DNA of 51,846 nucleotides from Nocardiopsis trehalosi NBRC 14201 (lineage in GTDB: Bacteria > Actinomycetota > Actinomycetes > Streptosporangiales > Streptosporangiaceae), in the NCBI RefSeq assembly GCF_001552555.1, contig NZ_BCRK01000021.1, positions 1-51,846 of the forward strand, read 5' to 3'. Shown in pieces: positions 18,808 to 21,257 of this stretch (within the stretch, counting starts at the first letter, position 1; each line of letters starts with the position of its first letter). A program made the position numbers and the translations under genes. The notes beneath the pieces were generated by a model. It was given only the letters and a program-made list of their open reading frames with translations. It was not told the DNA's origin and searched no databases.

Positions 18808-19887
18808 GTGCGGATCGCGCTCGTCCTGGGGGTGAGCAGCGGCGGCGTGGGCAACCACGTCCGGTCGCTGGCCCGCGGCCTGGTGGAGCGGGGCCACCGG
18901 GTGGTGGTGGCCGGGCCGCCCGAGACGGGGGAGCGGTTCGGGTTCACCGCAGCCGGGGCGGCGTTCGCGCCCGTCGGCATCGGGGCCGTGCCGCACCCCG
19001 GCCGGGACCTCGCGGCGCTGCTCCGGCTCGGCGGCCCGCTGGCCGGGGCCGACGCCGTGCACGCCCACGGGGTGCGCGCCGGGGCGCTGAGCGGGCTGGC
19101 GACCCGCACCCCGCTCGCCGTCACCCTGCACAACGCGCCCCCCGAGGCCACCGGGCCGCGTGCGCTGGTGTTCCCCGTCCTGGAGCGGATCGTGGCCCGC
19201 CGCGCCGAGACGGTTCTGGGCGTGTCGGGCGACCTGGTCCGCCGCATGCGCGAGCGCGGCGCCCGCGACGCCCGCCCCGCCGTGGTGGCCGCGCCGCCGA
19301 TGCCGCCCCCGCGCCGCACCCGCGCCGAGGTGCGGGCCGCCCTGGGCGTGCCCGAGGGCCGCCCGCTGCTGCTGGTGGTCGCCCGCCTCGCCGCGCAGAA
19401 GGGGCTCGACGTGCTGCTCGACGCGGTCCCCGCCATCGCCGACCGCGGCCCGCGCCCGGTGGTGGCCGTGGCCGGGGACGGCCCGCTGCGCGGCGCGCTC
19501 GCCGCCCGCGCCGCAGAGCGCGACCTGCCGGTGCTGCTGCTGGGCCACCGCACCGACGTCGCGGACCTGCTGGCGGCGGCGGACCTGTTCGTGCTGCCGT
19601 CGCGCTGGGAGGGGCCGTCGCTGGTGGTCATGGAGGCGCTGCGGGCCGGCCTGCCCGTCGTGGCCACCCGGGTCGGCGGCATCCCGGACCTGTACAGCGG
19701 GACCGCCCTGCTCGTGGCGCCGGGCGACCCGGCGGCGCTCGCCGCCGCGGTCGGGTCGGTGCTCGACGACGCGGCCCTGGCCGGGCGGCTGCGCGCCGCC
19801 GCCGCCCGCGCCGCTGTGATCTTGCCCACCGAGGACGACGTGCTCGACCAGGTCACCGGGCTCTACCGGGAGCTGGCGCGGCGGTGA
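18808..19887 (+). CDS. GT4-family glycosyltransferase
   Basis: 359 residues, GT-B fold. The N-terminal domain starts IALVLGVSSGGVGNHVRSLA. The C-terminal nucleotide-sugar site shows LLVVARLAAQKGLDVLLDA and the E-x7-E motif, EGPSLVVME (E268 and E276). It would transfer a sugar from an NDP donor to a lipid-linked acceptor on the cytoplasmic side. The start is the GTG at 18808 after GGGGAAGGGG. The 175-bp gap to the flippase gene contains only short G/C repeats (GCACCGGCGGGCG twice). It is the last gene of the steA-steB locus. Confidence 0.88.
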   Translation: MRIALVLGVSSGGVGNHVRSLARGLVERGHRVVVAGPPETGERFGFTAAGAAFAPVGIGAVPHPGRDLAALLRLGGPLAGADAVHAHGVRAGALSGLATRTPLAVTLHNAPPEATGPRALVFPVLERIVARRAETVLGVSGDLVRRMRERGARDARPAVVAAPPMPPPRRTRAEVRAALGVPEGRPLLLVVARLAAQKGLDVLLDAVPAIADRGPRPVVAVAGDGPLRGALAARAAERDLPVLLLGHRTDVADLLAAADLFVLPSRWEGPSLVVMEALRAGLPVVATRVGGIPDLYSGTALLVAPGDPAALAAAVGSVLDDAALAGRLRAAAARAAVILPTEDDVLDQVTGLYRELARR

Positions 19888-20054
19888 CCGGCGCGGACCC
19901 GGGGCAGGTGGGGACCGTGGGATACCACGGTCGGCCACCCCCTCTGACGTGGCATCGGACACGGACAGCGCCCAGTGTTCACAGCGCGCGTTCGATGGCA
20001 TGATGAGAGGGATCCGGGAACGGCCGGAGCGCCCCAGGCGTTCGGTTCTTCGGA

Positions 20055-20182
20055 TCAGGTGAGGGGAGTATCCCTTCGCGACGGTGTCGTCATCACGGAA
20101 CGCGCAGGCGCGGGCCCGGTGCCGTCGGCCCAATGGAGTCCGGAGTCGCACAACGGACCCATGGGCGGGAGAGACCTCCGGT
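20055..20182 (+). promoter_or_regulatory. yybP-ykoY-type manganese riboswitch upstream of the TerC gene
   Basis: The hallmark aptamer pieces are present in order. P1 5' strand GAGG (20061-20064) is followed at once by GGAGTA; the middle segment is GTCGTCATCACGG (near 20086-20098); and the 3' AGACCTC element has AGA at 20172-20174 and the P1 partner CCTC at 20175-20178. This class binds Mn2+ and commonly controls TerC-type exporters. The remaining ~165 bp upstream (19888-20054) hold no gene that I can support. Confidence 0.85.
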
Positions 20183-20224
20183 CGTCGAGCATGCCCTGGC
20201 CCCGTCCGGGTAGGGCGAACCGAA

Positions 20225-20233
20225 CCGGAGGAG
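20225..20233 (+). promoter_or_regulatory. Ribosome binding site of the TerC gene, sequesterable by the riboswitch
   Basis: CCGGAGGAG lies 7 nt before the ATG at 20241. ACCGGAGG (20224-20231) is an exact complement of CCTCCGGT (20175-20182), the 3' strand of riboswitch helix P1. Pairing would hide the site when P1 is open. Confidence 0.7.
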
Positions 20234-20240
20234 TTTTCGC

Positions 20241-21257
20241 ATGGATGTCCCCTTGTGGGTGTGGGTCGCCACCATCGGCGCGATGGTGGTCATCCTCGCC
20301 GTCGACCTCGCGATCGTCGACCACCCGTGGAGCAAGAAGTCCGGACCCAAGGAGTTCGGCATGAAGCAGGCCGCCTGGTGGGCGGCCTTCTACATCGGCA
20401 TCGCCATCCTGTTCGGGTTCGGCGTCTGGTACGTCGGCGGGGCGACGATCGCCGGTGAGTACTTCGCCGGGTTCGTCACCGAGAAGAGCCTCAGCGTCGA
20501 CAACCTCTTCGTGTTCTACCTGATCATGGGCAGCTTCGCGGTGCCGAAGAAGTACCAGCACGAGGTGCTGCTGGTCGGCATCGTCATCGCCCTGGTCATG
20601 CGCGGTATCTTCATCGCGATCGGCGCCCAGGCCATCAACGCCTGGAGCGAGGTCTTCTACCTCTTCGGCGCCTTCCTCATCTACACGGCCGTCAAGATCG
20701 TCCGCGACCACCTCAAGAAGGACGAGGAGGACGAGGACTTCACCAACAGCTTCGCGGTCCGCATGGTCCGCAAGGTGTGGCCGGTCACCGACGACTACCA
20801 CGGCGCGCACCTGACCGTGAAGCAGAACGGCCGCCGCTACGTCACCCCGATGCTCATGGTGATCGTCGCCATCGGCGTCACCGACCTGGTGTTCGCGGTC
20901 GACTCCATCCCCGCGATCTTCGGCCTGACCCAGGACCCCTACATCGTCTTCACGGCCAACGCGTTCGCCCTGCTCGGCCTGCGCCAGCTCTACTTCCTCC
21001 TGGCCGGCCTGATGGACCGGCTGTCGCTGATCAGCTGGGGCCTGGCCATCATCATGGTGTTCATCGGCGTCAAGATGATCCTGCACGCCCTGCACGAGAA
21101 CGGTGTGCACGTCCCCGAGATCGGCACCGGCCTGTCGCTGGGCGTGATCCTCGGCGTGATGACCGTCACCGTGGTGGCCAGCCTCGTCGTCGGAGGGCGC
21201 CGCAAGGAGTCCGAGCCCGTCGAGGACGCCGAGCGTCCGGGCGTCGCCTCGGAGTGA
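20241..21257 (+). CDS. TerC-family membrane protein, probable manganese exporter
   Basis: 338 residues, about nine membrane helices. Conserved acidic pairs of the family are in SVDNLFVFYLIMG and VTDLVFAVDSIPAIF. TerC/Alx proteins export Mn2+ or help metalate secreted proteins. A large cytoplasmic loop, DHLKKDEEDEDF, is acidic. The C terminus is charged and variable. The start is fixed by the strong GGAGGAG site. Expression is predicted to rise with Mn2+ through the upstream riboswitch. It is monocistronic: a hairpin and the uvrA promoter follow. Confidence 0.92.
   Translation: MDVPLWVWVATIGAMVVILAVDLAIVDHPWSKKSGPKEFGMKQAAWWAAFYIGIAILFGFGVWYVGGATIAGEYFAGFVTEKSLSVDNLFVFYLIMGSFAVPKKYQHEVLLVGIVIALVMRGIFIAIGAQAINAWSEVFYLFGAFLIYTAVKIVRDHLKKDEEDEDFTNSFAVRMVRKVWPVTDDYHGAHLTVKQNGRRYVTPMLMVIVAIGVTDLVFAVDSIPAIFGLTQDPYIVFTANAFALLGLRQLYFLLAGLMDRLSLISWGLAIIMVFIGVKMILHALHENGVHVPEIGTGLSLGVILGVMTVTVVASLVVGGRRKESEPVEDAERPGVASE

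Follow-up and report, generated by a model that had tools for sequence, protein, structure and literature searches.

A probable alx-type Mn2+ riboswitch before a TerC/Alx gene of Nocardiopsis trehalosi, with conserved pairing between its P1 3' strand and the ribosome binding site

The window (the whole stretch of DNA that was analysed, 51,846 nucleotides from Nocardiopsis trehalosi NBRC 14201, contig NZ_BCRK01000021.1) contains a gene of the TerC/Alx family preceded by a structured leader. The encoded protein matched PF03741 (E 7.9e-52) and TIGR03718, 'R_switched_Alx' (376.1 bits versus a curated cut-off of 246.4), which bears out the TerC family assigned in the initial annotation; the label of exporter given there is likely rather than certain. 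E. coli Alx carries the annotation Mn2+ exporter, and TerC proteins of B. subtilis have been described as metalating exported enzymes (PMC10246235, PMC12096827). By analogy, TerC/Alx proteins may load metal onto exported enzymes instead of simple export. A PDB sequence search with the TerC protein returned no match at E ≤ 0.1, and the nearest named TerC among the matches listed was that of Marinactinospora thermotolerans (88.9% over 316 aa).

Direct reading of the leader recovered, in place and in order, all the aptamer strings named by the initial annotation, including GTCGTCATCACGG at 20086–20098 and AGACCTC at 20172–20178. Also as annotated, CCTCCGGT (20175–20182) is the exact reverse complement of ACCGGAGG (20224–20231), over 8 of 8 bases. 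The start codon ATG occupies 20241–20243, 9 nt past GGAGG. The features of the locus are:

20061–20064, plus strand: P1 5' strand GAGG, from direct reading, the alignment of 26 leaders and the fold; it resembles the Shine-Dalgarno with which it would compete
20065–20070, plus strand: 5' side of L1, GGAGUA (DNA GGAGTA), adjoining GAGG and invariant in 26 of 26 leaders
20071–20074, plus strand: P1.2 5' strand UCCC, pairing with 20167–20170, with no variation in 26 leaders
20079–20089, plus strand: P3.1 5' strand, pairing with 20117–20127; 5 of 11 pairs changed on both sides
20090–20096, plus strand: L3, UCAUCAC, candidate Mn2+ loop with A20092 and A20095 invariant in 26 of 26; role assigned by comparison with PMC6754395
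20117–20127, plus strand: P3.1 3' strand (alignment, fold)
20128–20166, plus strand: P4 arm with a variable tip, 20128–20132 pairing with 20162–20166; 3 of 5 pairs changed on both sides
20167–20170, plus strand: P1.2 3' strand GGGA (alignment, fold)
20171–20174, plus strand: 3' side of L1, GAGA (direct reading, alignment)
20175–20182, plus strand: putative switch strand CCUCCGGU, the first four bases of which are the P1 3' strand and all eight of which can pair with 20224–20231
20193–20216, plus strand: small predicted hairpin between the two switch strands, GCCCU (20193–20197) with AGGGC (20212–20216)
20224–20231, plus strand: ACCGGAGG, containing the Shine-Dalgarno GGAGG (20227–20231) and complementary to 20175–20182
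20241–21257, plus strand: TerC/Alx-family membrane protein, 338 aa (PF03741, TIGR03718)

In several of the nearest relatives a GCCC/GGGC hairpin of this kind can be made out. The sequence GATGGCATGATGA, found at 19994–20006, about 50 nt upstream of the aptamer, likewise recurs in several of them and may hold a −10 element, CATGAT; a promoter scan of 19850–20300 returned no sigma-70-type site. Two snoRNA-like Rfam matches at 19996–20024 (12.6 and 8.9 bits) were taken as chance.

The structure of the aptamer was derived by comparison. A search of 60 genomes gave 30 TerC loci, of which 26 had a leader; the other four (L028, L029, L034 and L035) showed neither leader motif nor significant model match and were left out of the alignment. 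The 26 aptamers aligned over 145 columns, and a structure of P1, P1.2, P3 and P4 left 96.9% of cells paired, a figure favoured by the structure having been drawn by eye from the same alignment, with 8 pairs changed on both sides. Slid versions of the structure paired only 43–56% of cells. The observed covariation score was reached by none of 500 shuffles and the number of pair types by 3 of 500. Covariation sits in P3 and P4; P1.2 has none and P1 is one-sided, its changes being A-U to G-U only, apart from a fifth pair that 9 of the 26 leaders, the window's included, lack. P1 in the window has 4 bp versus the 8 bp of its competitor. The L1 motif GGGGAGUA was invariant in all 26 leaders and GAGACC on the 3' side in 25 (AAGACC in L014); the L3 adenosines 20092 and 20095 were also invariant, and either could match the metal-contacting A48 of X. 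oryzae. Between P1.2 and P3 the alignment holds a short linker only and no P2 arm of the kind found in four-way junctions, so that a three-way junction is predicted. Such a junction has been described for the mgtA member of S. pneumoniae (PMC9495176) and the E. coli alx leader also aligns without P2, which indicates that this arm is not required of every member of the class. The fold of the window's leader was only moderately better than its own shuffles (z −2.06), with 4 of 200 shuffles equal or better.

Assignment to the yybP-ykoY class had been referred by the initial annotation to the Rfam model RF00080, and there the expected match did not appear: the model scored 10.3 bits (E 0.99) in 19880–20300 (421 bases), relative to a gathering score of 45, and Rfam 15 produced no gathering-level match in the window. 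The same model was run on controls. In E. coli K-12, mntP scored 41.6 bits and fell short of the model's threshold of 45; the alx leader was absent from its list at E ≤ 1. Across 14 control genomes it found something in nine and exceeded the threshold in two, and at E ≤ 1 it detected none of 35 related loci (20 including L001, a second leader from the same genome, and 15 including the window's own leader as L006). Its consensus line contains the P2 hairpin and leaves P1 unpaired, making it a poor test for P2-less members. Since RF00080 misses alx and places mntP below threshold, and a model built from the leaders themselves joins the window with alx, the missing match is an unfair refuter of the class. 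These results suggest that Rfam-based annotation under-counts Mn2+ riboswitches in actinobacteria; the words yybP, TerC and manganese are all missing from the main text of an Rfam-based survey of leaders in Streptomyces lividans (PMC8079986).

The model in question, a covariance model named R1, was built from the 26 TerC leaders. It scored 98.8 bits on the window, which is a training sequence, and 49.5 bits on L001, a GDT1 leader outside the training set. A whole-genome search with R1 did not have L001 in its list; that first look scored 150 of 20,241 candidates. In E. coli, R1 found the alx leader just upstream of alx (39.0 bits, E 1.9e-8 in 16 kb); mntP was not found at E ≤ 10. Mainly because R1 finds the Mn2+/pH-responsive alx leader, the window's leader was filed in the yybP-ykoY class as alx type. 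The covarying fold and the TIGR03718 gene also support the class proposed by the initial annotation, and judged by its sequence the leader, placed before a TerC/Alx gene, very probably belongs with E. coli alx among the Mn2+ (yybP-ykoY) riboswitches. The yybP-ykoY class was reportedly established by two papers of 2015. The alx leader resembles that of the window in being found by R1, in having no P2 arm in the alignment and in being followed by a TerC-family gene, and differs from it in its downstream part, where no simple complement between the P1 3' strand and the Shine-Dalgarno can be seen by eye.

Related leaders are widespread. In the family, 119 of 150 genomes had an R1 match at E ≤ 0.001; in the phylum, 70 of 396 had one at E ≤ 0.01. 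Both counts include the window's genome and, given the strict filters, are lower bounds. Of the 78 phylum matches other than the window, 77 were taken (29 and 48 loci), leaving out only the one in G256, at a contig end, and L001 was added to give 78 loci. The genes that follow encode TerC in 50 cases, a P-type ATPase in 13, GDT1 in three, M50 peptidases, M48 peptidases and an unassigned protein in two each, and had no assignment by comparison in six; these labels used seeds drawn partly from the same loci, and Pfam named seven of the eight seeds or labelled members compared with it. A 'TerB' label on L113 and L078, which have no Pfam hit, is a guess. The M50 genes follow L096 and L074 and the M48 genes L109 and L110 (L096 and L109 by Pfam, the others by similarity); membrane-protease-type genes behind such aptamers would widen the gene set under Mn2+ control. 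Among the six without assignment, according to Pfam, the leader of L070 precedes a DksA/TraR zinc-finger protein and that of L080 a Na/Ca exchanger.

This last neighbour bears on the ligand, together with two published observations: besides Mn2+, alkaline pH too elicits a response from the alx leader (PMC9603457), and the S. pneumoniae member binds Ca2+ (PMC9495176). An alx-type leader that senses chiefly pH or another divalent ion such as Ca2+ is nevertheless quite improbable here, given that TerC, P-type ATPases and GDT1 predominate among the gene neighbours and that L1 and L3 are invariant or nearly so, as in Mn2+ sensors. We keep Mn2+ as the probable ligand.

An exact-pattern scan of named genomes gave at least 119 stretches and at least 80 loci, with Nocardiopsis, Nonomuraea, Cellulomonas, Terrabacter and Knoellia among the genera in the matches listed. 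TerC follows 79 of the 80 loci among these matches, and the last one ends 77 nt downstream. The pattern required CCTCCGG, hence the 80 loci say nothing on variation in those seven bases. In Corynebacterium glutamicum the leader of cg2157 (terC), likened here by description as an actinobacterial terC leader annotated with RF00080, was assigned 49.13 bits with an older Rfam release and was seen by RNA-seq (PMC3890552). Because of this earlier annotation, the association of terC with yybP-ykoY in actinobacteria is not new. The loci now available form a large comparative set in which to test how Mn2+ is read, and translation controlled, by a single weak helix.

The pairing of the P1 3' strand (P1') with the ribosome site, which the initial annotation had proposed as the switch, was analyzed at several depths. 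Of 200 single-base shuffles of the 85-nt downstream stretch of the window, 1.5% did no worse than the real stretch in pairing with the 12-nt P1' strand. Of downstream stretches from leaders with a different P1' strand, 23% matched the window's own pairing strength, because most of them hold GGAGG. The 8-nt pairing was perfect in 23 of the 26 close relatives (the exceptions being L012, L014 and L024), with an eighth pair T-A in 7 and C-G in 16, a change that may stem from few events. Among the named loci listed (at least 80), whose genomes are related and do not represent independent events, perfect pairing extended over 8 nt in 56 loci and over 7 nt in 61 loci. The eighth pair of these 61 was C-G in 38, T-A in 18 and neither in five (one T-G), and 15 of the 19 named loci without CCGGAGG read CGGAAGG, a one-base bulge.

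Across the phylum, 78 leaders were compared (the 77 matches minus L040, where the contig ends, plus L001 and the window). Pairing between the first 10 nt of P1' and the 85 nt downstream in the same leader had an energy of −14.3 kcal/mol, versus −11.6 kcal/mol for swapped leaders (z −11.1; 0 of 2000 permutations). Drawing a single leader from each of the 24 families, 100 times over, gave a mean z of −6.2, ranging from −8.1 to −4.1. The effect was gone when the strand was reversed (z −0.7; per family −0.3) and nearly gone when it was shuffled (z −1.6; per family −1.4). For individual leaders the swapped-pair test is weak, with 14 of 78 below 5%, because many leaders carry near-identical strands, and the case therefore rests on the pooled permutation. 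The same helix is built from differing sequences in L051 (CCTTCAACTG/CAGTTGAAGG), L053 (CCTCCAGC/GCTGGAGG) and L071 (CCTTCGTC/GACGAAGG). In the most frequent classes the P1 5' strand tracks the site, the two reading GGAGG with GGAGG in 21 leaders, GAAGG with GAAGG in seven and GAAGG with GGAGG in five. A helix of at least six pairs, starting in the first four bases of P1' and ending 2–16 nt before an in-frame start, was present in 54 of the 72 loci with an assigned gene (TerC 39/50, P-type ATPase 12/13, M50 2/2, M48 1/2, GDT1 0/3, unassigned protein 0/2) and was absent, short or elsewhere in the other 18. A count made without a reading-frame check, which placed a helix of at least six pairs over a purine motif in 56 of 78 loci, was discarded because it took in at least L001, L086 and L102, where the helix lies 43–48 nt before the start. 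With the pooled permutation and the position of the helix near the start, the proposed architecture holds against the relatives, and a switch between the P1 3' strand and the ribosome site is, as far as sequence comparison goes, well supported.

The same data weigh on whether there is a riboswitch at all. A GC-rich leader with a chance 8-nt match would agree with the insignificant Rfam score and with the modest advantage of the leader fold over its shuffles, but is contradicted by the covariation, the alx match and the swapped-pair test, and the phylum-wide recurrence before cation transport genes also speaks against it; we regard it as extremely unlikely. A chance origin of the 8-nt match itself was rejected on the shuffles and the swapped-pair permutation.

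Combined, these observations make it likely that 20055–20240 is an alx-type, P2-less, three-way-junction Mn2+ riboswitch that turns translation of TerC/Alx ON. Its direct basis is the conserved covarying fold, the alx match, the gene family and the conserved covarying pairing; from these we infer Mn2+ as the ligand, the direction of switching and a choice made during transcription. Without Mn2+, CCUCCGGU would pair with ACCGGAGG and hide the Shine-Dalgarno. Mn2+ would dock L1 and L3, and the first four bases of CCUCCGGU would be kept in P1 with GAGG (20061–20064); retention of P1 would block the 8-bp helix, allowing the ribosome to bind. The P1 5' strand would in effect imitate the Shine-Dalgarno, competing for the same anti-strand. 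P1 and the 8-bp helix are mutually exclusive by sequence, and the pairing is conserved. In published single-molecule work, Mn2+ docking makes P1.1 more stable towards an invading strand (PMC6754395). For E. coli mntP, unmasking of the ribosome site has been described as the step that turns the gene on (PMC11647493). By analogy, the leader anatomy fits this logic of P1.1 stabilisation and site freeing, with a one-step exchange. The translational ON mechanism is not new in kind, having been published for mntP (PMC11647493), which belongs to the same class and differs from the window in its RF00080 score (41.6 bits), in being missed by R1 and in its gene family.

Folding predictions bear on the timing of the switch. 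The predicted probability of the 8-bp helix was 0.98 in the free leader (20040–20262) and 0.00 when P1 was forced. The free (OFF) fold was favoured by 8.2–11.0 kcal/mol in the window, varying with the 3' end, by 16.1 kcal/mol in a shorter construct of the window and by a median of 12.6 kcal/mol over the 26 leaders, all energies that omit L1-L3 contacts and metal. With OFF favoured by 8–16 kcal/mol, switching, if any, is probably co-transcriptional, and these models point to a decision probably taken during transcription, before the Shine-Dalgarno emerges. When the aptamer was forced, predicted exposure of the Shine-Dalgarno ranged from 0.06 to 0.99 in the window according to the ends chosen, and 13 of the 26 leaders exceeded 0.5. 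Without this constraint the site was less than 20% exposed in 25 of 26 leaders, though in L030 not via the P1' strand and in L014 only half via it.

The same aptamer and ligand could instead act on transcription, through a terminator formed by the hairpin 20175–20231 or a leader opened to Rho if untranslated. Members of the class from B. subtilis, L. lactis and X. oryzae work through intrinsic termination, Rho is active at E. coli mntP (PMC6754395, PMC11647493), and TTTT stands just past the helix in the window. However, TTTT past the helix occurs in one of 78 leaders, that of the window alone, and 19850–20300 holds no terminator-like site; these results do not support an intrinsic terminator. 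Moreover, in 54 of 72 loci the helix ends 2–16 nt upstream of an in-frame start, as a switch at the ribosome site needs, and action on transcription is accordingly unlikely. The L. lactis, X. oryzae and B. subtilis riboswitches dock L1 with L3 and use P1.1 as the switch helix (PMC6754395), as predicted for the window's leader; they have four-way junctions and work by transcription antitermination, whereas the window's leader has no P2 and no terminator was seen in 19850–20300. Translational control at the ribosome site is thus retained as the preferred reading.

Already known are the class, its link to the gene and translational ON control. The present analysis adds comparative support for the pairing, and shows how broad the group is in actinobacteria and that the current Rfam model does not see it. 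Beyond the single locus, we give about even weight to the proposal that in Actinomycetota the alx-type Mn2+ riboswitches that precede genes for TerC and P-type ATPases share one minimal platform, with the P1 3' strand as anti-Shine-Dalgarno and the P1 5' strand as Shine-Dalgarno mimic, the three strands co-evolving, and that they have been largely overlooked because the Rfam model is blind to them. The GDT1 leaders, removed from this platform because none of the three has the helix near the start, would in the same proposal combine the same aptamer with a different, longer platform; their helix lies 43–48 nt before the start, so that they must work differently.

The genome of the window itself contains a second leader of the class, L001 (1514–1717 of contig C69), before a GDT1 antiporter gene. 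Its P1 3' strand and ACCGGGTCGAAGG can form a hairpin of 12–13 bp, 48 nt upstream of the start. Farther on, a CTCCCT is complementary to AGGGAG, the Shine-Dalgarno, and could pair with it, making a relay of alternative helices possible.
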